From Desulfobaccales bacterium (GTDB lineage Bacteria > Desulfobacterota > Desulfobaccia > Desulfobaccales > 0-14-0-80-60-11), in the NCBI GenBank assembly GCA_037481655.1, contig JBBFLF010000024.1, positions 1 to 37,207 on the forward strand: a stretch of 37,207 nucleotides of DNA, written 5' to 3'. Below the pieces are notes generated by a model. That model did no database searches. It saw only the letters and a list, made by a program, of their open reading frames with translations, and had not been told where the DNA came from. How positions within the stretch are numbered: position 1 is the first letter of the stretch; each line of letters opens with the position of its first letter. This document shows, piece after piece, positions 21,506 to 37,206 of this stretch. The translations under genes and the position numbers were made by a program.

Positions 21506-21533
21506 TTGACAATATGACAGTAGATGCTATATT
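21506..21533 (+). promoter_or_regulatory. Promoter and candidate operator of the MerR gene
   Basis: TTGACA (21506-21511) and TATATT (21528-21533) are 16 bases apart. An imperfect dyad lies across the spacer (AATAT at 21511-21515, ATATT at 21529-21533), a position where MerR-type regulators bind. The start codon at 21544 is only ten bases after the -10 box, so the transcript would have almost no leader. Confidence 0.55.
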
Positions 21534-21543
21534 ATGAGCAATC

Positions 21544-21951
21544 ATGGCCGAAAGGGAATACAGCATCGGGGAGCTGGCCGCGCAGGCCAAGGTGAGCCGA
21601 CGCACGGTGAGGTTCTATGTGGCCCTGGGGCTCATCTCGCCGCCCACCGGGCGGGGCCGGGGCCGCCATTACACCGACCGGCATCTGGAGGAGATCCTGG
21701 CCATCCGCACCCTGCAGGATAGGGGGTTATCCTTGGCGGAGATCCAGGCCCGCAAAGAGACCGAGGGCCTGACGGCCCTCCTGGCCGCCACCGGCCCGCC
21801 GGAGTTGCGCCCCGAGCTCTTTACCAAGATCGGGCTTGCCCCCGGGGTGTGGCTGGAGTTTTGCCATGAGACCGCGGCCTTGACGCCGGGGGAGATGCTG
21901 GAGCTTGCCCGCCGCTGTCGGGAGATCATCACCAGCCAGGGGAGGAAATAG
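21544..21951 (+). CDS. MerR-family transcriptional regulator
   Basis: A 135-residue regulator. The N-terminal winged-helix domain (residues 6-75) has YSIGELAAQAKVSRRTVRFYVALGL split as the usual helix-turn-helix, then GRGRHYTDRHLEEILAIRTLQDRGLSLAEIQ. The C-terminal half (76-135) has a single Cys and no metal-site pattern of the MerR/CueR kind, so the signal is unknown. No ribosome site precedes the ATG; translation may be leaderless. The stop is three bases before the VIT/vWA gene, so it probably controls that gene and itself. Confidence 0.93.
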   Translation: MAEREYSIGELAAQAKVSRRTVRFYVALGLISPPTGRGRGRHYTDRHLEEILAIRTLQDRGLSLAEIQARKETEGLTALLAATGPPELRPELFTKIGLAPGVWLEFCHETAALTPGEMLELARRCREIITSQGRK

Positions 21952-21954
21952 CCT

Positions 21955-24222
21955 ATGGGAGAGATGGCTGCTGCCGGTTTGGCCACCGCCGCCGGGGAAC
22001 CGGTGCCGCTTCGGGGGGTCGCCATTCATGTGGCCGGACGGGGGCCCGCCGCCCGAGTCACCGTGGCGCAAAGCTACGTGAACGACGAGGCCCAACCCGT
22101 GGAAGCGGTCTATACCTTCCCGCTGCCGGAGGAGGCGGCGGTGGCCGGTTTTCAGGTGGAGATCCACGGCCAGGTGCTTACGGGCCGGGTGGAGGAGCGG
22201 GAAAAATGTGTGGAGGACTATGACGCCGCCCTCTCCCGGGGAGCCGGGGCCTTCATGCTGGACCAGGACCGCCCCAATGTCTTCACCGCCTACGTGGGGA
22301 ACCTGAAGCCCCAGGAGGAGGTGGTGCTGCGCCTCACTTATGTCACGCCCCTGACCTGGGGGCCGGAGGGCCTGCGGGTGGCGGTCCCTACGGTGGTCTC
22401 GCCCCGCTATCTCCCCCCCGAGCACGTGCGCACCCTGGACCCGGCGGAGCTCTTCCACCTCACCCCACCGGCGGTGCTGGGGCCTTTGCCCTATGGCTTC
22501 ACCCTCACCCTGGATCTCACCCTCCCCGGCCGGGTGGCGGCGGTAGAGTGCCCCTCCCACCCCTTCCGCTTTGAGCTGGCCGACGGTCACCTGAAAGGCG
22601 CGGTGGCCGGGGTGGCCCGCATGGACCAGGATTTTGTCCTGCAGGTGCGGGTGGAGGGCGGCCACGAGCCCTTTTGCCTGGCGGCCCGGGAGCCCGACGG
22701 CGCCACGGTGCTTATGGTGGGGCTCAACCCGGAGTTTCCGAAGTCCAACCCCCGGTCACCTCTGGAGGTCATCTTCCTGGTGGACTGCTCCGGCTCCATG
22801 GCGGGGGAAAGCGCCGCCCAGGCCCGCAACGCCCTAGACCTGTGCCTTCGGGCCCTGGAGCTGGGCGACACCTTTAACATCATTGCCTTCGGTTCAGATT
22901 ATCAGGCGCTCTTTCCTGAGGCCCGGCCCTTTGGCGAAGACACCCTGGCCCAGGCGAACCGCCTGGTGCCCACCCTGGACGGCCACCTGGGCGGGACGGA
23001 AGTCTTGGCCCCGCTCCAGGCCGTGCTGGCGCAGCCGCCCGCGCCCGGGCGCCTGCGGGAGATCATTCTCCTTACCGACGGCCAGGTGGGCAACGAGGCG
23101 GAGATCCTGACCCTGGCCAAGCGGCACCGGGGGCAGGCGGCCATCTACCCCGTGGGCCTGGGCCGGGGTCCCAACGCCCACTTCATCCGCTCCCTGGCCC
23201 GGGTCTCCGGCGGGGTGGCCACCCTGGTGCATCCCGGGGAGCGCCTGGAGCCAGTGATGGTGCGCCTGCTGGAAAAGCTCGCCACCCCGGCCCTCAACCC
23301 CGTGGAGGTGGACTGGGACGGCCTGACCCCGGAACTCCAGACCCCGCAGAACCTGCCGCCCCTCCATCAGGGGGAGCCGCTCCTGGTCCTGGCGCGCTTT
23401 GCCGGCCCCGCCCCCGGGCGGGTCACGGTCCGGGCGGGAGGCCACACCTGGGAGCTGATGCCTGCTGCCGCCGGGGAGGATGACGTTTTGTCCCTGCTCC
23501 TGGCCCGGGAGGCCCTCCGGGAGCTGGAGGACCGCCTCCTGGGCGGCCGCTGGGCCTTGTCTCCCCAAGAGGAACGGGAGCTCAAGGCGCAGATCCTCTC
23601 CTTGTCCCGGCGCTATGGCCTCCTCTCCTCCCTTACCAGCTTCCTGGTGGTGGCCGAGCGCCCCGGCGAGGAGGCGGGCGACATCGTCATGAGGCGCATC
23701 CCGGTGGCCCTGACCCAGGGCTGGGGCGGCCGGGAGTGGGTAAGCAGATCCACCGTCAAGAAGCCTCGCATAGTTTATTGCAAGTTATTAGACGTTTCCG
23801 AAAAACCTTCAGCTTTTTATGAGTTCTCCCACATCCCGGTGAGAGAGAAAAAATTACCTACCGGGGTGGATCAGGACGAACAGGACTTCCGGTGCCTCAT
23901 CCGGGCCCAGCGGGTCTCCGGCTTCTGGCAATTGCCCCCGTGGCTGGCCCAGCTGGCCGGCATCAGCATCAATAAGGTGCGGAAACTGGCCCGCCAGCTT
24001 CCCCTGCCCCGGGAAGAGGCGGAGCAGCTGCTGGCCACCCTCCTGGCCTGGTATCTCCTGCACACCCGCTTTCAGAAGTGGCAGGCGGAATGGGCCTTGG
24101 TGGCCGCCAAGGCGGAACGCTGGCTTGAAAGGCACAATCTCACGCCGCCTCCCCCGGGCTCCGAGGTCCTCCCCTGGCTTATAGAGGCCCTAGCAGGCTT
24201 GCTTTCCTTTTCAGTTCAGTAA
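21955..24222 (+). CDS. VIT and von Willebrand factor A domain protein
   Basis: A 755-residue protein with no signal peptide. An N-terminal VIT domain (about 12-140; VTVAQSYVNDEAQPVEAVYTFPLPEEAAV) is followed by a vWA domain (about 268-440) with a complete MIDAS metal site: D277-x-S279-x-S281, T348 and D375. A C-terminal part (about 520-755) resembles the VWA5A-like tail. Such proteins bind partner proteins in a metal-dependent way; the bacterial role is unknown. Composition falls sharply near 23755 (35% G+C over 23761-23820), so the last fifth may have a separate history. It lies 3 bases after merR and 22 before the HATPase gene. Confidence 0.9.
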   Translation: MGEMAAAGLATAAGEPVPLRGVAIHVAGRGPAARVTVAQSYVNDEAQPVEAVYTFPLPEEAAVAGFQVEIHGQVLTGRVEEREKCVEDYDAALSRGAGAFMLDQDRPNVFTAYVGNLKPQEEVVLRLTYVTPLTWGPEGLRVAVPTVVSPRYLPPEHVRTLDPAELFHLTPPAVLGPLPYGFTLTLDLTLPGRVAAVECPSHPFRFELADGHLKGAVAGVARMDQDFVLQVRVEGGHEPFCLAAREPDGATVLMVGLNPEFPKSNPRSPLEVIFLVDCSGSMAGESAAQARNALDLCLRALELGDTFNIIAFGSDYQALFPEARPFGEDTLAQANRLVPTLDGHLGGTEVLAPLQAVLAQPPAPGRLREIILLTDGQVGNEAEILTLAKRHRGQAAIYPVGLGRGPNAHFIRSLARVSGGVATLVHPGERLEPVMVRLLEKLATPALNPVEVDWDGLTPELQTPQNLPPLHQGEPLLVLARFAGPAPGRVTVRAGGHTWELMPAAAGEDDVLSLLLAREALRELEDRLLGGRWALSPQEERELKAQILSLSRRYGLLSSLTSFLVVAERPGEEAGDIVMRRIPVALTQGWGGREWVSRSTVKKPRIVYCKLLDVSEKPSAFYEFSHIPVREKKLPTGVDQDEQDFRCLIRAQRVSGFWQLPPWLAQLAGISINKVRKLARQLPLPREEAEQLLATLLAWYLLHTRFQKWQAEWALVAAKAERWLERHNLTPPPPGSEVLPWLIEALAGLLSFSVQ

Positions 24223-24244: not shown

Positions 24245-27200
24245 ATGGGAAACTCGATAAAAGAAAAAATTGAGATGGTTTTGGAAAAACGAGCCCAGGT
24301 CTACCGGGTTGACCCGGACCGCATTGTCCAGGATGCCCGAGGGGCGCGACGGGCCGCCCAGGACTACCGGGGCCGCTGGCTGCTGGAACTCCTCCAGAAC
24401 TGCGAGGACGCCCAGAGCCCCCTGGTGCGCCTGGTGGCCCGCAATAACACCATTTATGTGGCGGACCGGGGCACAGGATTTGTTGCCACCGCCGTGGAGG
24501 CCATCAGCGGCTCCGATTTTTCTGATAAACCTGAAGGCACTATTGGCCGCAAAGGGGTGGGCTTCAAGGCAGTATTCGAAATCACCGACAACCCTCAGAT
24601 TTTTTCGAAAAATAACGACGGGTTGGAGTTCAATCCCCAAAAGGCGAGGGAATGGCTGGAGGCCAGAGATTTTCCTGCCAACGAGGAAATTCCCTTTCAG
24701 TGGCTCCCTTTCTCCCTGCACCGGGGCCAGGCTGCGGCGCAGGATCCGGTCCTCTCCCGCCTGCACGGCTTTGCCACGGTCATCAAACTGCCGCTGACAC
24801 CGGCGCTGAGGGCAGAGGAGGAACTGGCCGACGCCTTGCAAGAACTCAAGCCGGAAAATTTCCTGCCTTTTACCCATTTCCGGGTGCTGCAGGTATTCCT
24901 GGAAGACCAGAAATGGATCTGGAGTTGGCGCAAAATCCAGGAGAAGGGAAAAGAGGAGACACTTTGCCGCATCAAGATTTATGAGACAGGCCAGCTCACG
25001 GAGCAGAACTGGCGGGTTTTGCGACGGGAACTTGAGACTCCCAATCACCTGCTGCAGCATCTCAGTCCCCAGGACCGGAAACATGCTAAGAAAGTCACTT
25101 GGCTGGTGGCCGCGCCTGTGGAGGAAAGTCTGGTGGGGCCCACAGAGGAATATCTGCCAATTCAGGTGTTCTATCCCACCGAGGTGCCTTCCCCGGTGCC
25201 TCTTCTCTTGCACGGCGAATTTCTGGTGAATACCGAGCGCACCGCCATCATCCCCGATCACCCTTTCAATGACTGGGTGGCGACGGAACTGGCCGGTCTG
25301 GTAGTGGAATTTGTCCAGGAGTGCTATCACCCGGAGGCGCCGGCGACCTTCCTGCAGCTTCTGAGGCCATACGAGCACCTCACCGCCCATGACTACACCC
25401 GAAAACTCTGGCATGGCATTACCACGGCAGCAAAAGAACAATTGAGACTCCCCGATCTTGAGGCTGTTCCCCGTCTGCATTGCAAGGAAGCCCTAGTCTC
25501 CCCGGCCTCGGAGCTCGCCCACGAGCTTCTCTCCCATACTGACCTCCGGTCCCGGTTGGTGCACCGGGAAGTCAGCCGGGATAAGGAAGTAGTGGAGAAG
25601 GTCCTGAAGCCCTTGGGTGTGGAAGTATGGGGATCAGAGAATCTCCTCCGGTGGCTCCATGAGAACGGAAGAGATTACGGAAGCGACCCGGAGTGGCTCT
25701 GGCTGGCCTGGCAGTGGCTGGCGGAGTGGGTAGGCGAAACAAAGAAATGGTCAGAAGAAAGGAAGGACCGGGTGCAGCGGGTCAGATCCCTGGCCCTGCT
25801 GCCAGTGAACGGGAATCTCAAAAGTGTTGCGGAGTTGGAAGACCGGTTCATCACCTGGAAAGATGAAGAAACTCCGGAATTGCCTGACTGGCTGCCCCTG
25901 GCCTTCCTGGATTCCTGGTTTGCCGACAGAATCAAAGAAATTATTAAGGAGAAAGAGAACCAACTCATGGAGTTGTTGGGTCTCAGCGGCAGTGGTGACA
26001 CCCACCTGGGGATCAGGAGACCCAACAGAGATCTATGGCGCCAGGCCCTGGAGCAGGCCATTGAGGATTTTTGGCAGAAACCACGGGGGAAGAAAAAGAG
26101 ATTTCTCGAGTTTCTCCTGGCCTCCGGGTGGCATGAGGCCTTTGAGGCCACAGACCGACTAAAACGCTGTCCCATCCCAGTGGTGCGGGGAGGGAAACCG
26201 GAATTTGAAGAGGCCGGGAAGGCTTATTTCTCCTCCTCCTGGGGTGGCGGGGAGCTCCTGGAGCAACTGTGGGGCGATGATCCCCGCATCCCCTGGGCCC
26301 AGCCTTTTGCTAACCTTGACCGGGAAAAGCAACGAGAGGTCTACCGGTGGTTGGGGGTCAATTTTTTTCCACAATTAGGTGATGAAGAGGAGTATAAAAT
26401 AGAAATTCTTAAAAATATAAATGGGAAATATCATGATTATGTTTATAAGGAGACCGAATGGGAAAGAAAATATATAAATATTAGATTTATAGAATTTATT
26501 AATTTTTCGCAACAAGATTATAACAATTCGAAAATATTGCTTATTTTACTTGCAAAATATTGGGATAATTATTATAAAAGGTACGCATACACGAGGGCCT
26601 ATTATCTACCTTATAGATGTTGGAAATCTCGATCGGCTGAGGTGGACAATTTCTGGTGGTTTCAGGTAAAAAATGAACTCCGGGTTCCGGTCACCCACCC
26701 CAAGTTTGCTGGAACACCCCTCAGCCAATGCTGGCTTCCTGATGCGCAAGCCCAGAAAAATTTGGGGCAATTCCTTCCCATAATTGATCTCGAGGCTTTT
26801 CCGGAAGAATATCGGCAAGAGGTGGCTGAGTGGCTCCGATATGAGCTGAGACTCAGGGAGCGTCTGGACCAAGTGAAGCTGGAGGAATGGCAGGAAATCC
26901 TCCAGACCTTGCCAGAGAGATATCCTCCCGACCGATGCGCGAAGTATGCTGGAGCTAGAAATGCCGTGGGCGCCATTTACCGGACCTTTCTGGAATCAAG
27001 CCATGATCCTGCGAATCTGAGGGAAGTGGCCTGGCTGAGCCGCAAAGGGGAGCAATGGGATTACCGTGAGAACTGCTGGCTCGATGACGACGAAGATGTC
27101 GCCCAGGCCTTCTCCCAGGATATCTGGCTGCTGCTCCATCCGGGCAGCGATCAGGAGGCCAGGGCCGCCAAGCTTCCGGGGGTGAAACGCCTATCCAGGC

Positions 27201-28375
27201 ATTCTCACATCGAGGTTCTGCCCGGAGGCGAAATTGAGGCAGAGTCCCAGGAAATCAGTCAAAGACTTCACGAAGTCCTCCCTTTTATCTACGTATGGCT
27301 GCGGGACCAAGGAAAAATAGACGAAAAAGAGAGGGAAAAACTGCGGACTTTGACTGTTAAGGTAGTGGACTCCCTCAAACTCATGGTTGCTCTTAATGGC
27401 GTAGGCGAGCGAACCATCTCCAAGAGTTGGGCCCTGGATAAGAATCTCATCTTCCTTTCCGTAGAGAGCCTCCGGAACCGGAGCTGGCAGTCAGACCTTT
27501 CCCAAGGATTGGCTAACTTTTTGCGGCGCAAGGCGGAGCAGGAATTTTATGAGATTCTCCTCCGCTGTGAAAATGAGGAGGAACGCCGGGCAAAATTACG
27601 CCAAAAAGGAGTTCGAGATGAAGGTATTGGAATGTTTCTGGAGGAATATTATGGGACCGCCCTTCCTCCGTCAGAACCCCCTTCGGAGCCCAGGAGTTCC
27701 GGGACCTCTACCAGCATAATTCTCGAGAGAATATCGCCTGCAGAGAAAACGGGGGCCGGGCCATCTCAAGAACCGGTAGTGGAATCACCACCCAAACAAG
27801 AGACCTCTCCCCAGGTCAGTCTCGTTGATCCTAAAAAAATTTCATGGCAGCAAATCAAATCAACGGGAACTACTACTACCATAGAAACAGATGATTCTTT
27901 TAAGTATGCTCCAACTTCGCCAAATAGCGAGACCTTTAGCGGAACGTCCTCACTCTCTCAGGAAGAACGGAGGAGAATCGAGAAAGTTTCCCGGCAGGTC
28001 TGCCGAAAAAGACTGGAGGAAGAGGGCTATGTGGTGGAGGAGATGCCGGAGGACCACCCCGGCTTTGATCTGAAGGCTTCCAAAGACGGGCGGACCAAAC
28101 TCATTGAAGTGAAAGGACATGCAGGCTCTGCGGCTAAGGTGGAGATCTCCATCAGGCAGATAATGGCTTACTTGAAGCCAGAAACACACGGCGGCGACTC
28201 TTGGGAACTATGGAATGTGGAACATCTCAGGGTAAATGGCAGGCCCCCGGAGATTCAAATATTCACCACACTGAACCTTGACCAACTTGAAGCGAAATCT
28301 TTTTATGTGGATATAAGGGAACAACGGCCTGCAGAAGTCTGGAGGGGGATTATGGGGGACCAGCTGGAGAATTGA
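24245..28375 (+). CDS. Sacsin-type HATPase protein with C-terminal DUF3883 domain, candidate defence factor
   Basis: A 1376-residue protein. The N-terminal GHKL ATPase has E48, N52 and D55 (LLELLQNCEDA), D74-R-G76-x-G78 and G101-RKG-VGFK, the layout of sacsin and related ATPases. A long central part (about 200-1090) has no motif I recognise. Residues about 712-798 come from an extremely AT-rich stretch. A Pro/Ser/Thr-rich linker (about 1135-1235) leads to a DUF3883 (NO VEIN C-terminal) domain at about 1240-1350, with D1275 (GFDLKA) and E1288-V-K1290 (LIEVKG), matching a PD-(D/E)XK nuclease-like site. It directly precedes cas3. An ATP-gated nuclease role in phage defence is inference. Confidence 0.85.
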   Translation: MGNSIKEKIEMVLEKRAQVYRVDPDRIVQDARGARRAAQDYRGRWLLELLQNCEDAQSPLVRLVARNNTIYVADRGTGFVATAVEAISGSDFSDKPEGTIGRKGVGFKAVFEITDNPQIFSKNNDGLEFNPQKAREWLEARDFPANEEIPFQWLPFSLHRGQAAAQDPVLSRLHGFATVIKLPLTPALRAEEELADALQELKPENFLPFTHFRVLQVFLEDQKWIWSWRKIQEKGKEETLCRIKIYETGQLTEQNWRVLRRELETPNHLLQHLSPQDRKHAKKVTWLVAAPVEESLVGPTEEYLPIQVFYPTEVPSPVPLLLHGEFLVNTERTAIIPDHPFNDWVATELAGLVVEFVQECYHPEAPATFLQLLRPYEHLTAHDYTRKLWHGITTAAKEQLRLPDLEAVPRLHCKEALVSPASELAHELLSHTDLRSRLVHREVSRDKEVVEKVLKPLGVEVWGSENLLRWLHENGRDYGSDPEWLWLAWQWLAEWVGETKKWSEERKDRVQRVRSLALLPVNGNLKSVAELEDRFITWKDEETPELPDWLPLAFLDSWFADRIKEIIKEKENQLMELLGLSGSGDTHLGIRRPNRDLWRQALEQAIEDFWQKPRGKKKRFLEFLLASGWHEAFEATDRLKRCPIPVVRGGKPEFEEAGKAYFSSSWGGGELLEQLWGDDPRIPWAQPFANLDREKQREVYRWLGVNFFPQLGDEEEYKIEILKNINGKYHDYVYKETEWERKYINIRFIEFINFSQQDYNNSKILLILLAKYWDNYYKRYAYTRAYYLPYRCWKSRSAEVDNFWWFQVKNELRVPVTHPKFAGTPLSQCWLPDAQAQKNLGQFLPIIDLEAFPEEYRQEVAEWLRYELRLRERLDQVKLEEWQEILQTLPERYPPDRCAKYAGARNAVGAIYRTFLESSHDPANLREVAWLSRKGEQWDYRENCWLDDDEDVAQAFSQDIWLLLHPGSDQEARAAKLPGVKRLSRHSHIEVLPGGEIEAESQEISQRLHEVLPFIYVWLRDQGKIDEKEREKLRTLTVKVVDSLKLMVALNGVGERTISKSWALDKNLIFLSVESLRNRSWQSDLSQGLANFLRRKAEQEFYEILLRCENEEERRAKLRQKGVRDEGIGMFLEEYYGTALPPSEPPSEPRSSGTSTSIILERISPAEKTGAGPSQEPVVESPPKQETSPQVSLVDPKKISWQQIKSTGTTTTIETDDSFKYAPTSPNSETFSGTSSLSQEERRRIEKVSRQVCRKRLEEEGYVVEEMPEDHPGFDLKASKDGRTKLIEVKGHAGSAAKVEISIRQIMAYLKPETHGGDSWELWNVEHLRVNGRPPEIQIFTTLNLDQLEAKSFYVDIREQRPAEVWRGIMGDQLEN
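26401..26580 (+). other. Extremely AT-rich patch inside the HATPase gene
   Basis: Counting by hand, 37 of 180 bases are G or C (about 21%), while line 25081-25140 of the same gene has 36 of 60 (60%). The reading frame stays open and encodes a Tyr/Asn/Ile/Lys-rich segment. Confidence 0.9.
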
Positions 28376-28400: not shown

Positions 28401-28414
28401 GGGTTAGATTTTTG

Positions 28415-31210
28415 ATGCATCATCTTATCTGGGCGAAAAGACGAAAACTGCCACCTGGAGAGGAACCATCCTCCTCTTATCATCCCTTTATTTGCCATTG
28501 CATTGATGTGGGTGCGGTTGCCGAGCTTTTATGGAAAGAGGTCCTAAAGCCGCATTTTAGGGAGGAGATGAGCCGAGAATTGGGGCTTGAGTCGGATTTG
28601 GCCGGGAAATGCCTGGCCTATCTGGCCGGCCTGCACGATCTCGGGAAAGCCACACCGGTTTTCCAGGGGCAATGGGAGGAAGCCAGGCAGTGGCTAGAGG
28701 CGGCAAGGCTCAGTTGTCCTCTGCCCTTTTCGCAAGTTCATCATGGTATTCTGACAACCTGTCTCCTTGAAGAGCTGTTTCCCAGCCATCTCCCCTCCTT
28801 CCCTTCGCCTGTTATCAGACAGCTGGCTTTTATTTTGGGAGGTCATCACGGAATATTTCCGCGGCAAACTGATGTGAACCATGTTACCACCAAGATAAAG
28901 GGAGGAAAAAGGTGGGAAGAATTGCGGGCAGGGTTAGTCAAAAGGTTTACCGAGTTGTGGGATGTCGGCAACCTGCCTTTGCCTCGAACTTCTAATATTT
29001 CTTGGGCTTGCCTCCTGAAGCTGGCCGGATGGGTGAGCGTGGCGGACTGGATCGGCTCCAATGAAGAGTATTTCCCCTTTGCTTCTCCTGAAATAGACCT
29101 CGAAGATTATCGCGAAAAAGCTCGTTATCAGGCCCAGAAGGCTTTGCAGGGCTTGGGCTGGTTAGGTTGGAAAACCCCTTCCACCTTTGTCACCCTACCA
29201 GAACTTTTCCCCGTCATTCGTTCCCATGGGCTGAGGCCTTTGCAACTAACGGTTTCGGAACTCGGAAAAAAAATGACCGAACCGGGCTTGGTCATCGTGG
29301 AAGCTCCCATGGGGGAGGGGAAAACCGAGGCCGCCATGTATTTGGCGGACCGCTGGGCCGTAATACTGGGCCAGAAGGGCTGCTACTTTGCTTTGCCCAC
29401 CATGACCACCAGCAATCAGATGTTCAGCCGGGTAAAGGAGTTTCTTGGGCAGCGGTATTCTGAGGAGATGGTTAATCTCCAGCTTCTGCATGGACATGCC
29501 TCCCTGGCGGCGGAATTTCAGGCCCTGCGGCGACGGGCGGAGCAATTCTTTATGCCTGCCAATCTGGAAGCAGATGAGGGGGGCTGCCAGGCCAAGCTTC
29601 CAGGAGAGATCATTGCCGCAGAATGGTTTACCCACCGAAAACGGGGTCTTTTGGCCCCCTTCGGAGTGGGCACCGTGGATCAAATACTCTTGGCCGCCCT
29701 GCATACCCGGCACTATTTTGTGAGGCTCTTTGGTCTGTCTCATAAGACTGTGATCGTGGACGAAGTCCATGCCTATGATGCCTACATGGTGAAGCTCCTG
29801 GAGCGCCTGCTGGAATGGCTGGCCGCCTTGGGCTGTTCGGTGGTGCTGTTGTCAGCTACCCTGCCACAACAGCGGCGACTGGCCCTGATGAAGGCTTTTT
29901 GCCGGGGTCTGGGAAGGCCCTGCCCCCAGATACCAAGAAGTCCCTATCCTCGGGTTTCATGGATTACCCCTTCAGGTGAGGGAACCCGGGGATTTGAGGT
30001 GAGTTCTCTCTCTTCCAGAAAATTAAGATTATGGTGGCTTGCACCTCAAAATTCTGAGACTGACACCCCCTATTCCCAATTGAGGCAAGAGTTTCAGAAG
30101 GCTCTAGCGGAGGGCGGCTGTGCTGCGGTCATCTGCAATACCGTGGGCCGGGCTCAGGAAATATACACGGCCCTAAAAAAATTTTTCCCTTCACCCGACG
30201 CGGGCGATGGGTTTCCGGAACTGGATTTGTTTCATGCCAGATACCCCTTTGGAGACCGAGAGGAAAGAGAAAGGCGGACCTTGCAGCGCTTCGGAAAGCC
30301 AGGTTCCGGGGTTAGCAGGCCTCACCGCGCCATCCTGGTGGCCACTCAGGTCATCGAACAGAGCCTGGATTTGGACTTTGACCTGATGGTCACGGAGATG
30401 GCCCCGGTAGATCTCCTGTTACAGCGGGCCGGCCGGCTGCATCGTCATCAGCGGACCCGGCCGGCAAATCTGCAGGAACCAACCCTGATGCTTCTGACCT
30501 CGGAATTGCAGGGGGAGGTCCCACGCTTTGATCCAGGCACTGAGAGCGTATATCACCCCCATGTGCTTCTCAGAACCTGGTGGGCCCTCAGAGGGCGGCA
30601 AACTATCGCCATACCTGAGGATGTGGAAGAGTTGATCGAGATGGTTTATGAAGATGTAACTCCAACGGGAGAGCTTCCTCAGGGTTTGTTACGGGTCTGG
30701 GAGGAGACCTGGAAAGATCTGCAAAGGAACCAGCAGGAGGAGGAGAACCAGGCCCGCCTAAGATATATTTTACCTCCTTACTTTCCCGATGATATTTGGG
30801 AGCATCCCAACCTTGGACTGGAGGAGGATGACCCTGCAGTGCATCGCTCTCTGCAGGCCCTCACCCGCTGGGGTGATCCATCCGTATCCCTGGTCTTATT
30901 ATATGAAAAGGGAGATAAGGTCTTACTTGACCCTGAGGCTGAGCGACCGGTGGCCTTGGAAACAAAGCCGGAGGGGGATTTAGTCCGGGGGCTGTTGCAG
31001 CGCTCAGTGACTATAACTCACCGTCGTTTGGTTCCCTGGCTCCTTAAGGAGGGCGAAATCCCGACAGGTTGGCGCCGACATCCTTTGCTTTGCCGCCACC
31101 GCCTTATCCGCCTGAATCCCGAGAGGCGTTGGCAAGGCGCAGGCTATGAACTTTCTTTGGATCCCGAACTCGGGGTGGTCATCACCTCCATGAAAAAGGA
31201 GTCGCCATGA
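28415..31210 (+). CDS. cas3: Type I-E CRISPR nuclease-helicase Cas3
   Basis: A 931-residue protein that degrades DNA marked by Cascade. The N-terminal HD nuclease domain has H28 (ICHCIDVG), H74-D75 (GLHDLGK), VHHGI and GGHHGIFP. The SF2 helicase part has Walker A APMGEGKTEA near 300, DEVHAYD near 448, LLSATLP, TQVIEQSLDLD and QRAGRLHRH. The length is typical for type I-E. ATG 28415 follows a TTG codon in frame; no strong ribosome site is present. Its stop overlaps casA (ATGA), so they are co-translated. Confidence 0.97.
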   Translation: MHHLIWAKRRKLPPGEEPSSSYHPFICHCIDVGAVAELLWKEVLKPHFREEMSRELGLESDLAGKCLAYLAGLHDLGKATPVFQGQWEEARQWLEAARLSCPLPFSQVHHGILTTCLLEELFPSHLPSFPSPVIRQLAFILGGHHGIFPRQTDVNHVTTKIKGGKRWEELRAGLVKRFTELWDVGNLPLPRTSNISWACLLKLAGWVSVADWIGSNEEYFPFASPEIDLEDYREKARYQAQKALQGLGWLGWKTPSTFVTLPELFPVIRSHGLRPLQLTVSELGKKMTEPGLVIVEAPMGEGKTEAAMYLADRWAVILGQKGCYFALPTMTTSNQMFSRVKEFLGQRYSEEMVNLQLLHGHASLAAEFQALRRRAEQFFMPANLEADEGGCQAKLPGEIIAAEWFTHRKRGLLAPFGVGTVDQILLAALHTRHYFVRLFGLSHKTVIVDEVHAYDAYMVKLLERLLEWLAALGCSVVLLSATLPQQRRLALMKAFCRGLGRPCPQIPRSPYPRVSWITPSGEGTRGFEVSSLSSRKLRLWWLAPQNSETDTPYSQLRQEFQKALAEGGCAAVICNTVGRAQEIYTALKKFFPSPDAGDGFPELDLFHARYPFGDREERERRTLQRFGKPGSGVSRPHRAILVATQVIEQSLDLDFDLMVTEMAPVDLLLQRAGRLHRHQRTRPANLQEPTLMLLTSELQGEVPRFDPGTESVYHPHVLLRTWWALRGRQTIAIPEDVEELIEMVYEDVTPTGELPQGLLRVWEETWKDLQRNQQEEENQARLRYILPPYFPDDIWEHPNLGLEEDDPAVHRSLQALTRWGDPSVSLVLLYEKGDKVLLDPEAERPVALETKPEGDLVRGLLQRSVTITHRRLVPWLLKEGEIPTGWRRHPLLCRHRLIRLNPERRWQGAGYELSLDPELGVVITSMKKESP

Positions 31211-32757
31211 CCCCGTATTTCAACCTGGTTGACGAACCCTGGATTCCCTGTCTGATGCCGGATAATCGCCTGCAGGAATTCGGCCTCCTAGAGGTTCTGG
31301 TGCGGGCTCCGGAAATTCGGGAAATTTTTCACTCGTCGCCTTTGGTCGTGACCGCAGTGCATCGGCTGCTCTTGGCCATCCTGCACCGCAATTTCGGCCC
31401 GGAAAGTTTAGCCGCCTGGAAGGAGCTGTGGGAGCGGAGGAGTTTTGATGCCCAGGCGTTGCAGGAGTATTTTGACCGCTGGCGGGAGCGGTTTTTCCTG
31501 TTCCATCCGGAGCGGCCCTTTTATCAGGTGCCGAGGATGGAAGATGCCAGGGTGCATCCGGTGCAGCTTCTGGCCCTGGAGGCTGCTGCGGGAAACAATG
31601 CCACCTTGTTTGACCATCATTTCAGTGAGCATCCGGCAACCTTTAGGCCCGCCCAGGCCGCCTGTTATCTGGTCGCCCGCCAAGCGTACTCCATCGGGCT
31701 TGGCAAAAGCCACCCTTTTTATTTTTCCGATTCCCCGCTTATTCGCGGCTACACTGTTCTTGTTTTGGGGAAAAATCTCTTCCAGACCCTTGCCTTGAAC
31801 CTCCTCCCCGTACATCAGGATCGCCCCATACCCCGAATAGATGAGGATCTGCCTTCCTGGGAATTGCCCTCTCTCCCCGAGCCTGATCCCAGGGGCAATT
31901 TGATAACTGGTTACATTTCCTATCTTACGTGGCAAAGTCGGAGAATTCACTTGATTGCTGAGGGTAATTCGCCAGTAGTACGTTTCTGCCAGATCCAGCA
32001 GAATTGGAAGTTACCAGAACCGACCCCTTTGGATCCCTTCAAGTCCTACCGGCGGTTGGAAAAAGAAGGTCTGGTTCCCCGGGGCTTGTCCCCCGAAAGG
32101 GCGGTTTGGCGTGACTGCCATGCACTTTTGGAATTACAAGGGAGACCTGAAGTATTAGCTTCTTTAGCCCAGAAAAAGGCCATCTTGCGAGATAGAAAAG
32201 ACTGCCAGTTTTCCATTACCGGTGCAGCAACTGAGGGTGGAAAAGCTGCTCAACTCATACTCTGGCGCTACGAGCGTCTCCCTCTGCCCCTGGACTATCT
32301 GGAAGATGAAAACCTTTTGGGGGAATTGCGGAATGCTTTGGAGGTGTGTGAGAGAGCTCATGATTGCCTCAATCAGCATATGAGGAACCTGGCTGCCCTG
32401 GTGCTTGCCCCGCCCGTTGGGGGGCAAAAGCGCCAAGCCGATCCGCAGGAAGTGGCTCGTCTGGTCCAATCCTGGGCCCCCGGCCGCCGCTACTGGGCCC
32501 GTCTGGAGGCCCCTTTTCGGCATCTGATGGCAGAGTTGCCGGCAGACCAGGTGGAAAATGAAGAGGGCGAGGTGGTTTATGGCACTCGTTTGCTGCCGGA
32601 ATGGCGCCGCACAGTTTATAAGGCGGCGCGACAAAGCTTTCAGGAGGTGGCTAAGAGCCTGGAAAATTCGCTGCGCTCTTTGAAGGCCTTGGCCCAGGTG
32701 GAGGGGCGGTTTTTTGCCGCTCTGAAAAAAGAACTTCTTCCGGAGGAGCAAACATGA
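31207..32757 (+). CDS. casA: Cascade large subunit CasA/Cse1
   Basis: A 516-residue Cse1 protein, which recognises the PAM and recruits Cas3. The N-terminal signature FNLVDEPWIPCL is present, followed by family features such as HPERPFYQVPRM and a helical C-terminal bundle (about 380-510). Its start overlaps cas3 and its end overlaps casB, each by four bases. Confidence 0.95.
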   Translation: MTPYFNLVDEPWIPCLMPDNRLQEFGLLEVLVRAPEIREIFHSSPLVVTAVHRLLLAILHRNFGPESLAAWKELWERRSFDAQALQEYFDRWRERFFLFHPERPFYQVPRMEDARVHPVQLLALEAAAGNNATLFDHHFSEHPATFRPAQAACYLVARQAYSIGLGKSHPFYFSDSPLIRGYTVLVLGKNLFQTLALNLLPVHQDRPIPRIDEDLPSWELPSLPEPDPRGNLITGYISYLTWQSRRIHLIAEGNSPVVRFCQIQQNWKLPEPTPLDPFKSYRRLEKEGLVPRGLSPERAVWRDCHALLELQGRPEVLASLAQKKAILRDRKDCQFSITGAATEGGKAAQLILWRYERLPLPLDYLEDENLLGELRNALEVCERAHDCLNQHMRNLAALVLAPPVGGQKRQADPQEVARLVQSWAPGRRYWARLEAPFRHLMAELPADQVENEEGEVVYGTRLLPEWRRTVYKAARQSFQEVAKSLENSLRSLKALAQVEGRFFAALKKELLPEEQT

Positions 32758-33305
32758 ACCTGGAAGAACGCTTTATTGGCTATCTGGAAAGTCTTGTGAA
32801 AAACCAGGATCGGGGAGCCCTGGCGCAGCTGCGCCGGGGCTTAGGGAAACCCCCCGGGGCGGCCCCGGAAATGCACCGCTATGTGGTACCCTTTCTTCCG
32901 GCTACGCCGTCACCTACTCTGGAAGAAGCCTATTACCTTATCGCCGCACTGTTCGCCTTCTGGCATCAAGGGAAAGACACAGTGGCGTCGAACGCGCCTC
33001 CCAATTTGGGAGCATCCCTGGCCTGTATGGTGACCAAGGACAACGAAGACAGTATAGATCGCCGCTTTACCGCCCTGCTGAAGAGCCACCCGAGGGATTT
33101 GTCGCACCACATGCGGCAGGCGATCGGCTTTCTCAAATCGAAGGAGGTGCCAGTGGCTTGGCAGCAATTATTGCGGGATATTCTGAACTGGGAGCACCCT
33201 GAGGGCTTTGTCCAACGGGACTGGGCCCGGGCCTTCTGGGGCCGCCGGGCAGTATGGGCGCCCCCTGCACTGCCTGAAACCCCTGAAGAAGAAATTACTG
33301 CGTAA
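32754..33305 (+). CDS. casB: Cascade small subunit CasB/Cse2
   Basis: A 183-residue basic helical protein of the Cse2 family. The early GALAQLRRGLGKPP and the late pattern QAIGFLKSKEVPVAWQQLLRDILNWEH are characteristic. Two copies usually line the Cascade belly and hold the displaced DNA strand. It overlaps casA by four bases and ends 19 bases before cas7e. Confidence 0.94.
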   Translation: MNLEERFIGYLESLVKNQDRGALAQLRRGLGKPPGAAPEMHRYVVPFLPATPSPTLEEAYYLIAALFAFWHQGKDTVASNAPPNLGASLACMVTKDNEDSIDRRFTALLKSHPRDLSHHMRQAIGFLKSKEVPVAWQQLLRDILNWEHPEGFVQRDWARAFWGRRAVWAPPALPETPEEEITA

Positions 33306-33324
33306 AGAGAAAGGAGGCCGCCTT

Positions 33325-34482
33325 ATGTTCGTGGAATTGCATATGTTGCAAAATTTTGCCCCGTCCTGCCTGAACCGGGATGACACCAATTCCCCCAAAG
33401 ACTGTGAATTCGGGGGCTATCGCCGGGCCCGCATCTCCAGCCAGTGCATCAAGCGGGCTATCCGCAGGCATTTTCAGGATTACCCCCGTTTATCGCAAGC
33501 CCATTTGGCTAAAAGGACGAAGCTGCTCGTAGACATGCTCACCGATAAATTGGCCGCTGCTGGGAAAGACCTGGAGACCGCCAAAGCAGTAGCCGAAACG
33601 GCTTTGCGCAGTTGTGGCTTGGGAATCAAAAGCGACGGCAAAACTGAATACCTGGTGTTTCTGGGTCAAGGTGAGGTAGCCGCCGTGGCTGAGGCGTGTA
33701 TTCAACATTGGGACGAACTGGCGGCGGCCGCTGGGGAAACCGAGGTCGAAGGCGATAAAAAGGCCAGAAAAAAGGCGAGCAAGGCCGCAGTGCCGGAGGA
33801 ATTCCGGAAAAAAGTGGACACCCTCCTTGATGGCGGCAAAGCCGCGGATCTGGCCCTCTTTGGCCGGATGCTGGCCGATCTGCCGGACAAAAACATCAAC
33901 GCCGCCTGCCAGGTGGCCCATGCCATCTCCACCAACGAAGTCTCCATGGAATTCGATTTCTACACCGCGGTGGACGACCTGCAGCCCCGGGAAGAGACCG
34001 GGGCCGGCATGATGGGCACGGTGGAGTACAACTCGGCCTGCTTTTACCGCTATGCCAATATTGACTTCAAACAACTCGTCAAGAACCTGGGGAACGACCA
34101 GGAGCTGGCCCGCACCGCAGTCCAAGCCTTTCTCACTGCGGCGGTTAAGGCAATCCCCACCGGCAAGCAGAACAGCATGGCGGCCCACAACCCTCCCTCT
34201 CTCGTCTTTGCGGTGGTGCGGGAGCATGGTCTGTGGTCGCTGGCCAACGCTTTTGTGGAGCCGGTGCGCCCCTGGAGGGACGGGAACCTAATACAGAAGT
34301 CCATCACCGCACTGGAAAATTATTGGCAGCGACTGACCACCGCCTTCGGAGATGAGGGTATCAAAGAGAAAGCGGCTCTGGTAGTGGACGGCAAGTTGTC
34401 CTCCCCTCAAATTGCGCAGGTCGATAATCTCGCAGACTTGATTAACAGAGTCATGTCCGCCTTGCCCGGAGGCCAGCCATGA
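33325..34482 (+). CDS. cas7e: Cascade backbone subunit Cas7e (CasC/Cse4)
   Basis: A 385-residue RAMP-type protein, present as six copies along the crRNA. The signature N-terminus MFVELHMLQNFAPSCLNRDD and RARISSQCIKRAIRRHF are clear, followed by the family motif ISTNEVSMEFDFYTAVDD. ATG 33325 follows AAAGGAGG by nine bases; the frame is open upstream into casB but that is overlap. It overlaps cas5e by four bases. Confidence 0.96.
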   Translation: MFVELHMLQNFAPSCLNRDDTNSPKDCEFGGYRRARISSQCIKRAIRRHFQDYPRLSQAHLAKRTKLLVDMLTDKLAAAGKDLETAKAVAETALRSCGLGIKSDGKTEYLVFLGQGEVAAVAEACIQHWDELAAAAGETEVEGDKKARKKASKAAVPEEFRKKVDTLLDGGKAADLALFGRMLADLPDKNINAACQVAHAISTNEVSMEFDFYTAVDDLQPREETGAGMMGTVEYNSACFYRYANIDFKQLVKNLGNDQELARTAVQAFLTAAVKAIPTGKQNSMAAHNPPSLVFAVVREHGLWSLANAFVEPVRPWRDGNLIQKSITALENYWQRLTTAFGDEGIKEKAALVVDGKLSSPQIAQVDNLADLINRVMSALPGGQP

Positions 34483-35258
34483 GCACCCTCCTTCTCCGTC
34501 TGGCCGGCCCCCTGCAATCCTGGGGCATCCAGAGCCGCTTCACCGTCCGGGACACAGCCCTGGAACCTTCCAAAAGCGGCGTGGTGGGATTATTGGCCGC
34601 GGCTTTGGGCCGCCCTCGCCATGCCTCCCTGGAAGACCTAGCCGCGCTTAAGATGGGCGTGCGGGTGGACCGTCAGGGGACCGTGAAAATGGATTTCCAC
34701 ACCGCCGGAGGCACCCACCGCCGGGATGAAGATTATGGGGTGGCCCTGGCCGACGGCAGTGGCAAACGGGCCATCACCTCCCAGCGCTTTTATTTGGCCG
34801 ATGCCGATTTTCTGGTGGGTCTGGAAAGTGACGACGAAGAATTCCTCTGCCGGCTGGACGCCGCCTTAGCCCGGCCACGCTGGCCCTTATATTTGGGGCG
34901 CAAAGCCTTTGTCCCGGGGCGCCCCATTCGCATCACCTATCGGCCACCCCACTTGCCTGGTCCGGAGGGAGTCCCTGGAGTGGTGCGTCTTCCTCTCACT
35001 GAGGCCTTGTCTCAATACCCCTATCTGGCGCGCTCCCCCAAGGAAAAGGACCGACTTCAAAAACAGGGGGAACTTCGCCTGCGCCTGGTGCTGGAAGCCG
35101 AACCCGGCAGCACTTCGGAGGTGCGCCCGGACCAGCCGCTATCCTTTGCCATTCTCGAGCGCCGGTATTTGTTGCGCTATGTCCAGACCACCTTTGTCAG
35201 TCTGCCCGTGGACCTGATTGAGGAGGACCCCCATGTATCTTTCCCGTCTGCTGCTTAA
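34479..35258 (+). CDS. cas5e: Cascade subunit Cas5e (CasD)
   Basis: A 259-residue Cas5 protein that caps the 5' handle of the crRNA. LLRLAGPLQSWGIQSRFTVRDT and EPSKSGVVGLLAAALGR are typical of the family N-terminus, and later YLGRKAFVPGRPI fits. It overlaps the cas7e stop by four bases; its 3' end overlaps the cas6e start by 26 bases. Confidence 0.96.
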   Translation: MSTLLLRLAGPLQSWGIQSRFTVRDTALEPSKSGVVGLLAAALGRPRHASLEDLAALKMGVRVDRQGTVKMDFHTAGGTHRRDEDYGVALADGSGKRAITSQRFYLADADFLVGLESDDEEFLCRLDAALARPRWPLYLGRKAFVPGRPIRITYRPPHLPGPEGVPGVVRLPLTEALSQYPYLARSPKEKDRLQKQGELRLRLVLEAEPGSTSEVRPDQPLSFAILERRYLLRYVQTTFVSLPVDLIEEDPHVSFPSAA

Positions 35259-35997
35259 TCCCAAAAGCCGCAGGGTGGTCCGGGACCTGGCTGACTGCCA
35301 GGAATTGCACCGCACCATTATGTCCGCCTTCCCTTCCGCCGCTTCCCCAGAGGGGGCACGAGCCCAGTTTGGCGTTCTTTACCGACTGGAGCAGGACCGC
35401 CGACACCATCGCCTGATTCTGCTGGTGCAATCATTGGTTTCCCCCGACTGGTCCCGGTTGCCCCAGGATTACTTGGCAGCAGTACCCGGTCTGGAGAATC
35501 CGGCGGTTAAACCGGTGGCCCATCTCTATGAGAGCATCGCTCCTGATACGGTCCTGGCTTTTCGCCTGCGGGCCAACCCCACCCGGAAGATTGACACCAA
35601 AACCGGCCCCGACGGCCGAAGACGACACGGCCGCCGGGTGGAGCTGGTGCGGGAGGAGGACCAGGTGGCTTGGCTTAAACGGAAAGCCCAGGAGGGAGGC
35701 TTCGAGCTCTTGGCTGTCCAGGTACGGGGGTTCACCAAGGAAGAGGGCAGAAAACCGGGGCCTTCCGGCTCTGCCCTGACCGTGGCCGGCGTCCTCTTTG
35801 AAGGTTATTTAAGAGTGACCGATCCCCAGAAATTCCGGGAGCACAGCCTTGTGCGGGGAGTGGGTCCCGGCAAGGCCTACGGCATGGGGCTTTTGTCCTT
35901 GGCGCCCCCTGAGGGAGGTCGTGATGCGGGTCAAAGATCTGCACCTGTTACCCAAGTTCCGGGACGCTCTAACCTATCTCTATGTGGAACATTGTAG
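35233..35997 (+). CDS. cas6e: CRISPR RNA endonuclease Cas6e (CasE)
   Basis: A 254-residue RNA endonuclease that cuts the repeat hairpin. H26 (ELHRTIM) is in the place of the known catalytic His of the family, and the Gly-rich loop GVGPGKAYGMGLLSLAP is at about 209-225, where the family usually ends. About 28 further residues (PEGGRDAGQRSAPV...) are encoded inside cas1, which starts 74 bases before this stop. ATG 35233 follows AGGAGG by six bases. The extended tail suggests loss of an earlier stop codon. Confidence 0.94.
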   Translation: MYLSRLLLNPKSRRVVRDLADCQELHRTIMSAFPSAASPEGARAQFGVLYRLEQDRRHHRLILLVQSLVSPDWSRLPQDYLAAVPGLENPAVKPVAHLYESIAPDTVLAFRLRANPTRKIDTKTGPDGRRRHGRRVELVREEDQVAWLKRKAQEGGFELLAVQVRGFTKEEGRKPGPSGSALTVAGVLFEGYLRVTDPQKFREHSLVRGVGPGKAYGMGLLSLAPPEGGRDAGQRSAPVTQVPGRSNLSLCGTL

Positions 35998-36883
35998 GGT
36001 GGAGCAGGACGACCGGGCCATTGCCCTATGGCAGGCCCAGGGCAAGACCCCGGTCCCTTGCGCCAGTCTGTCCCTTTTGATGCTGGGTCCCGGTACCTCC
36101 ATCACCCATGCCGCCGTGGCCACCCTGGCAGATAACGGCTGCCTGGTGCTGTGGTGCGGCGAAGAAGGCGTCCGTCTTTACGCTCATGGTCTGGGCCTCA
36201 CCCGCAGCGCCGCCTACCTGCTACATCAGGCCCGCCTCTGGGCCAACCCGCGCACCCGGCTCCAAGTGGTATTACGTCTTTACCGGATGCGCTTCGAGGA
36301 ACCCTTGCCTGATACCCTCACCCTGAAACAGATTCGGGGCAAAGAAGGGGTAAGGGTCCGGGAAGCCTATGCCCGGGCTAGCCGGGAAACCGGGGTTCCG
36401 TGGCATGGCCGCGCCTATCGGCGGGACTCCTGGCAGGCTGCCGACCCGGTCAATCGGGCCTTGTCCGCCGCCAACAGTTGTCTTTATGGCATCTGCCATG
36501 CTGCCATCCTGGCCCTGGGCCTGTCCCCCGCCCTGGGCTTTATTCATACCGGCAAGATGCTTTCTTTCGTGTATGACGTGGCCGACCTCTATAAAACCCG
36601 CCTCTCCATCCCCCTCGCCTTTCGGGAGACCGCGGCTGGCCTCCAAAACTTAGAGAGCCGGGTACGTCAAGCCTGTCGGGATGAATTCCGGCGCATATTT
36701 TTCCTCAAGACCATTATCCAGGATTTGCAAGCCCTTCTTGACCTGGAAGCGTTGGCTGATAGTGAAGATTGGGAGAAATATCACCAGGATGAAGCCCTGC
36801 CCGGGGGGTTGTGGGATCCCGAGGAAATGGAGACCGTGGCCGGAGGCCAAAATTTTGCTCCTGACCGGGAGGAGGAAACTTAG
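35924..36883 (+). CDS. cas1: CRISPR integrase Cas1 (type I-E)
   Basis: A 319-residue integrase for new spacers. E141 (RGKEGVRVRE), H208 (GFIHTGKMLS) and D221 (VYDVADLYK) are the metal ligands, at the same numbers as in the E. coli enzyme. ATG 35924 follows GGGAGG by about six bases, with the N-terminus RVKDLHLLPKFRDALTYLYVE of the family. It overlaps cas6e by 74 bases and ends two bases before cas2. Confidence 0.97.
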   Translation: MRVKDLHLLPKFRDALTYLYVEHCRVEQDDRAIALWQAQGKTPVPCASLSLLMLGPGTSITHAAVATLADNGCLVLWCGEEGVRLYAHGLGLTRSAAYLLHQARLWANPRTRLQVVLRLYRMRFEEPLPDTLTLKQIRGKEGVRVREAYARASRETGVPWHGRAYRRDSWQAADPVNRALSAANSCLYGICHAAILALGLSPALGFIHTGKMLSFVYDVADLYKTRLSIPLAFRETAAGLQNLESRVRQACRDEFRRIFFLKTIIQDLQALLDLEALADSEDWEKYHQDEALPGGLWDPEEMETVAGGQNFAPDREEET

Positions 36884-36885
36884 CA

Positions 36886-37161
36886 ATGGTGGTGCTGATC
36901 CTGGAGAAGGTGCCCACATCCCTGAGAGGGGAATTGAGCCGCTGGTTTCTGGAACCCAAGACCGGCGTATTTGTCGGCAAGGTGTCAGCCTTGGTGCGGG
37001 ACCTCCTTTGGGACAAGGTGTGTCGTGGAAAAGGCCAGGGTGCCGCCCTGATGATTTACAACTCCAACCGGGAGCAGGGATTTGACATCCGCAGTCATGG
37101 CGAGACCTCTCGGCAGGTCGTGGACTTCGAGGGCCTTTTGTTGATTCGCATCCCGCAATGA
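36886..37161 (+). CDS. cas2: Cas2 of type I-E
   Basis: A 91-residue Cas2e protein that forms the adaptation complex with Cas1. VVLILEKVPTSLRGELSRWFLE and AALMIYNSNREQGFDIRSHG are hallmarks of the I-E version, which lacks the usual N-terminal catalytic Asp of other Cas2. It ends about 16 bases before the CRISPR repeat. Confidence 0.96.
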   Translation: MVVLILEKVPTSLRGELSRWFLEPKTGVFVGKVSALVRDLLWDKVCRGKGQGAALMIYNSNREQGFDIRSHGETSRQVVDFEGLLLIRIPQ

Positions 37162-37170: not shown

Positions 37171-37177
37171 GGGAAGT

Positions 37178-37206
37178 GTTGTCCCCACGCACGTGGGGGT
37201 GAACCG
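37178..37206 (+). CRISPR. First repeat of a type I-E CRISPR array (cut by window end)
   Basis: A 29-base unit starting GTTGTCCCC and ending GGGGGTGAACCG. A perfect stem CCCCACG/CGTGGGG with a CA loop is the type I-E repeat hairpin, and GAACCG-type ends form the crRNA handle in this family. Only one copy is visible, so repeat limits and array size are not proven. Orientation is the same as the cas genes. The repeat could be one or two bases longer on the left. Confidence 0.85.

Follow-up and report, generated by a model that had tools for sequence, protein, structure and literature searches.

The window analysed here, the entire 37,207-nucleotide contig C24 of the Desulfobaccales genome G000, carries at 24245..28375 an open reading frame (ORF) for a 1376-residue protein that, judged by how much of the known profiles it covers, is a divergent member of the Tiamat (TmtA) kind, with a sacsin-type GHKL ATPase head and a PD-(D/E)XK nuclease-like DUF3883 tail. 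The gene, tmtA for short, lies inside a run of same-strand genes (a directon) that is headed by a MerR-family regulator and a VIT/VWA-domain protein and continues into a type I-E cas operon, which is a new context for the Tiamat kind. Tiamat is said to be a single-protein anti-phage system, attributed to Millman et al. 2022, and later papers describe its mechanism as unknown. The ORF has no internal stop and is present in a single copy in its own genome; its parts are as follows.

24245..28375, + strand: tmtA-like gene, GHKL ATPase, central region and PD-(D/E)XK DUF3883, 1376 residues, ATG start
24362..24934, + strand: GHKL/Bergerat ATPase domain, about residues 40–230, from the profile and fold match to sacsin SR1
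26345..26734, + strand: AT-rich patch, residues 701–830, GC at third codon positions 0.35; GC 0.35 versus 0.53 for the whole gene
27953..28351, + strand: DUF3883, a PD-(D/E)XK nuclease-like domain, about residues 1237–1369, from Pfam NOV_C, the model and fold matches

A preliminary annotation made from the letters of the DNA (the sequence-only reading) could name no validated system of this exact build. This no longer holds, as two PADLOC TmtA profiles match the protein over nearly its full length: PDLC03964 (1e-86) covers residues 3–1121, and PDLC03972 (1.9e-58) aligns residues 44–1302 with positions 43–1249 of 1302. It is because of this coverage, rather than the E-value by itself, that we count the protein as a TmtA member.

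The ORF and the ATPase residues listed in that reading (E48, N52, D74, G76, G78 and GRKGVGFK at 101–108) were confirmed by a position check. The protein matches P_loop_sacsin of NCBIfam (62.3 bits, cut-off 50) and SACS of Pfam (33.1 bits, cut-off 32.8), and a profile built from five relatives finds sacsin SR1 (5v47) in the PDB with E 3.6e-6. In an AlphaFold model of residues 1–720, which is of moderate confidence (pLDDT 60.5, pTM 0.55), the head aligns best with the same sacsin structure (Z 7.4 over 132 residues) and after it with Hsp90, GyrB, MORC and MutL; for this N-terminal model Foldseek by itself found nothing significant, and it was structural re-alignment that gave sacsin SR1, in agreement with the sequence profile. 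Together, the profiles and the model show a predicted sacsin/Hsp90-type GHKL ATPase whose ATP site is complete. The AT-rich patch beyond it is weakly conserved, and the frameshift in the homologue from genome G005 falls close by.

At the other end of the protein, NOV_C (= DUF3883, Pfam) matches residues 1245–1309 (31.1 bits, cut-off 22.1), and both the domain and its residues D1275, E1288 and K1290 are as the earlier reading had them. E1246, which had been overlooked, is an additional active-site residue, and all four are invariant across an alignment of six relatives. Loss of the ExK site in most relatives, which the sequence-only reading would have counted against itself, was not seen: of the DUF3883-bearing relatives that were examined, nearly all retain it, and a simple pattern failed only for one short plasmid protein (L054). 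In the model of residues 640–1376, the domain (model residues 598–730, pLDDT mostly 70–90) has the order alpha-beta-beta-beta-alpha-beta and a fold match by Foldseek at E 2.6e-4. The best structural match is the archaeal resolvase Hjc (2wcw; Z 12.3 over 113 residues, 2.8 Å), and the set, which includes the SPARDA effector nuclease (Z 11.5), NhoI, DpnI and EcoRV, spans Z 6.6–12.3; in a profile search from the relatives' alignment, EcoRV appeared at E 1.8, which alone is not significant. The spacing of the active-site residues is 29/13/2 here, close to what is probably 30/13/2 in the Hjc of S. solfataricus. The nuclease reading agrees with the published view of DUF3883 as a novel restriction endonuclease (REase) domain, which that work lists in fusions with SNF2 helicases (PMC3710099, Table 1); the Pfam family is the same, but the fusion here is to a GHKL ATPase. 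By sequence and model alike, the tail is a PD-(D/E)XK nuclease-like domain whose active site is complete, and a nuclease tail is now well supported for this protein.

Set against known systems, the protein resembles Tiamat in its near full-length profile match, its sacsin-type GHKL head and its C-terminal DUF3883, a domain that annotated TmtA-type proteins and several of the PADLOC TmtA models also have. It differs in score (290 bits on its best model, whereas a TmtA from a Sphingobium plasmid scores 1667 bits on its own model) and in being encoded within a cas directon behind MerR-VIT, and its activity is putative. Relatives of tmtA have no constant partner gene alongside, whereas this copy is co-directional with MerR-VIT and cas. 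Sacsin SR1 (5v44–5v47) shares the GHKL domain both in sequence and in fold, but sacsin itself is a eukaryotic chaperone that has DnaJ and HEPN domains and lacks PD-(D/E)XK; no DnaJ/HEPN modules of the sacsin type were found in the TmtA-like protein, for which Pfam reports SACS and NOV_C only. Archaeal Hjc and other PD-(D/E)XK nucleases share the fold and the E-D-ExK active-site pattern of DUF3883, which here is a domain of a large ATPase, whereas Hjc is a stand-alone resolvase. MutL, MORC and paraMORC likewise couple a GHKL ATPase to nucleic-acid work, and MutL and MORC structures are among the matches, but sacsin SR1 matches the head better, and the nuclease fold of MutL differs from the PD-(D/E)XK-type fold of the TmtA tail.

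The remainder of the directon, including its promoter-like element and the CRISPR repeat at the contig end, comprises:

21506..21535, + strand: promoter-like element with dyad (TTGACAATATGACAGTAGATGCTATATTAT), 11/12 sigma-70 match
21544..21951, + strand: MerR-family regulator (Pfam MerR_1, 2.8e-20)
21955..24222, + strand: VIT and VWA domain protein (Pfam VIT 1.1e-30, VWA_3 9.1e-27)
28415..31210, + strand: cas3, type I-E (PADLOC Cas3e, 2.7e-207)
31207..32757, + strand: cas8e (profile matches)
32754..33305, + strand: cse2 (profile match)
33322..34482, + strand: cas7e, start approximate (profile matches)
34479..35258, + strand: cas5e (profile match)
35233..35997, + strand: cas6e, start approximate (profile match)
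35945..36883, + strand: cas1e, start approximate (profile match)
36886..37161, + strand: cas2e (profile match)
37176..37206, + strand: first I-E-type CRISPR repeat (from sequence); the contig ends inside the repeat

The I-E set is thus complete, from cas3 to cas2e. The gaps are 3 bases between MerR and VIT, 22 between VIT and tmtA and 39 between tmtA and cas3, the last as noted earlier (cas3 starts at ATG 28415, with an in-frame TTG at 28412), and no terminator was found between tmtA and cas3. The GC content at third codon positions (GC3) is 0.60 in tmtA, 0.59 in cas3 and 0.60 in cas8e (0.59–0.74 across tmtA and the cas genes), versus 0.88 in MerR and 0.84 in VIT, which are near the neighbouring tmk gene (0.81).

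The order (MerR-)VIT-tmtA-cas3 recurs within the window's bacterial family. In three of its genomes tmtA precedes a type I-E operon: intact in G000; split by a frameshift near residue 750 in G005, of another genus, with a complete I-E set within about 60 bases downstream; and eroded in G001, of the same genus, to a remnant of residues 1–231 directly ahead of cas3. In G011, a MerR-VIT remnant-tmtA arrangement precedes a type I-C operon (cas3c, cas5c), with tmtA split across two contig ends (C308, C267) that we join by inference. Across 395 genomes of the phylum, a search at E 1e-20 located the close subfamily in three members of the window's family and, elsewhere, as one C-terminal relic. The relic (G163:C88, 52832–53092; L087, 8833–9093; E 1.8e-34, 97-residue frame) is isolated, lies immediately after an ORF6N-like gene and belongs to another family of the phylum. 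Relatives outside the family (31–34% identity; Phycisphaerales, Planctomycetota, Chloroflexi) have no I-E genes alongside on their short contigs, and more distant TmtA-type genes adjoin restriction-modification (R-M), HerA-SIR2, DISARM-like helicase and CRISPR loci, so the defence association proposed earlier is borne out and the mainly housekeeping contexts that would have spoken against it were not seen. No relatives were found in phages or in a scan of viral contigs, a plasmid search gave distant TmtA-type proteins only, and no paper on sacsin-type genes adjoining type I-E came up in literature searches.

Two further loci lie close to this subject. In G295 (L048, 7043–10324; L088), a long I-E-type CRISPR array has at its far end the gene for a 1093-residue GHKL-DUF3883 protein, which adjoins type I R-M genes; this is an independent instance of the pairing near I-E. 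The window's genome also has a Cas3c (type I-C) gene on another contig (G000:C31; L057, 7840–10005) with no MerR-VIT or tmtA upstream.

The joint function with type I-E that the sequence-only reading had suggested is therefore upheld only in part: the family conserves the linkage, but it extends to I-C, and some I-E loci do without tmtA, which is neither general to them nor required. We take the linkage to be a real one that is local, optional and not specific to I-E; tmtA is not a Cas component. We consider it probable that its product is a divergent, Tiamat-type (TmtA) anti-phage effector that works as a single protein, an ATP-gated nuclease that stands alone and is co-transcribed with the I-E cas genes. 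A phage cue would be sensed through the central region, the N-terminal heads would dimerise on binding ATP, in the manner of MutL, MORC and Hsp90, and head dimerisation would bring two nuclease domains together to cut what is presumably DNA. TmtA would thus act alone, although a MerR-controlled promoter ahead of MerR-VIT would drive one transcript for it and for the type I-E Cas proteins. Besides the profile and fold matches, this explanation has in its favour that TmtA relatives in other places occupy defence islands that have no Cas, that the genes here form a closely spaced same-strand directon lacking a terminator between tmtA and cas3, with the 11/12 promoter ahead of MerR, and that tmtA equals cas3 and cas8e in GC3 and differs from MerR and VIT. 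Several points weigh against this explanation. The TmtA profiles are broad, in that a paraMORC-type R-M protein from an Arthrobacter plasmid and a GHKL-helicase reach 1e-47 to 1e-49, although these match by their N-terminal 400 residues alone; the central region and much of the model of residues 640–1376 contain long stretches without confident structure; and two of the three I-E-linked tmtA copies are damaged, so selection for tmtA at this position is not strong.

That same damage favours an account in which tmtA is a passenger, one of several unrelated defence modules found behind MerR-VIT and tied to Cas by shared transcription alone. The leader also heads I-E alone, III-A and BREX, and we put this account only just short of an even chance; it overlaps with the effector explanation, its sole difference being that it denies any benefit of the tmtA-cas pairing. 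Against it, tmtA-cas adjacency is seen in three genera and with two cas subtypes, which exceeds the expectation for free shuffling, albeit in a small sample. The same adjacency to cas3, in four genomes (I-E in G000, G001 and G005; I-C in G011), together with a base composition that matches the cas genes and not MerR-VIT, could instead mark tmtA as a dedicated CRISPR accessory that aids type I interference or spacer acquisition, for example by processing DNA opened by Cas3. This is improbable, given the MerR-VIT-cas3 (I-E) locus G011:C271 (L055) and the I-E loci of G009, all without tmtA, the intact cas3 of G001 beside a tmtA remnant, and the closest relatives outside the family, which have no I-E genes alongside. 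As to what would be cut, an activated nuclease might destroy host DNA or RNA and stop the cell, with no selective cutting of phage DNA. No cognate methylase or immunity gene adjoins tmtA in the window, and DUF3883 resembles the SPARDA effector nuclease, which degrades DNA indiscriminately; since the closest fold is nevertheless that of the structure-selective resolvase Hjc, we regard such an abortive-infection toxin as rather unlikely. Finally, the similarity of the ATPase to sacsin SR1 could be taken to indicate a housekeeping sacsin-like chaperone that sits beside CRISPR by chance, which is scarcely credible for a protein with a nuclease-type C-terminus and an invariant active site, a patchy distribution (4 of 395 phylum genomes at E 1e-20) and relatives in defence neighbourhoods. 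Distribution and synteny led us to reject both this chaperone reading and an adjacency due to mere chance.

The cassette at the head of the directon is found with other cargo. Seven close VIT copies are present in four genomes, and all seven lie directly ahead of a same-strand defence operon: tmtA/I-E in G000, G001 and G005, I-E alone in G011:C271, tmtA/I-C in G011:C308+C267, BREX (brxA, brxB, brxC, pglX) in G000:C14 and III-A (cas6, cas10, csm5) in G005:C58. Both G005 contigs begin inside VIT, leaving MerR out of view, and the G001 leader (C25) and its tmtA remnant-cas3 (C7) are on two contigs that cut VIT and are joined by inference. At the BREX and I-C leaders VIT is a remnant and MerR is intact; the MerR ahead of BREX, in the window's own genome, is a 90% identical paralogue. 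The 30 bases ahead of MerR are kept in 5/5 readable leaders, while the DNA further upstream is much less conserved, and in all five this element has −35 and −10 boxes together with a dyad of 7–10 of 12 pairs about a common centre. A search of 12 genomes with up to three mismatches places it only ahead of MerR-VIT (reversed control, 0 matches); the copies at the BREX and G011:C271 leaders have 5 and 4 differences from the query, respectively. The element at 21506–21535 is probably a MerR operator that drives the whole directon.

MerR-VIT thus has the look of a leader shared by exchangeable defence cargo; the GC3 of MerR and VIT, which is like that of tmk, and the lower GC3 of tmtA and cas fit a resident leader with exchanged cargo. 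It would presumably regulate defence. As a further step, MerR-VIT/VWA and its dyad promoter might form a dedicated and hitherto undescribed control cassette, through which one MerR-sensed signal, possibly transduced by VIT/VWA, co-induces CRISPR-Cas (I-E, I-C, III-A), BREX and TmtA modules in one family, a proposal that we hold tentatively and at somewhat under even odds. MerR-VIT pairs outside the family (G137, G303) have cargo that is indistinct or past the contig end, on plasmids the only VIT relatives are distant, sortase-target-like ones, and literature searches found no paper on a MerR-VIT defence leader. Upstream of both MerR-VIT cassettes of G011 (L019, 1066–3429; L055, 3855–5971) there is a divergent WYL-WCX regulator as well as an ARPP-1 (PF20208) gene, and the BREX operon of the window's genome encodes a HEPN protein (RiboL-PSP-HEPN, PF18735) between brxC and pglX (L056, 14883–15584).

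For Tiamat, the protein offers a concrete, mutable model, a putatively ATP-gated head joined to a resolvase-like nuclease tail, with seven residues named as mutable sites (E48, N52, D74, E1246, D1275, E1288 and K1290). The shared MerR-VIT leader is the more novel result and one that a specialist would not expect: the locus suggests that one bacterial family retains a regulator-promoter cassette and swaps the defence operon behind it and, if this is true, co-induction of adaptive and innate defence becomes testable.

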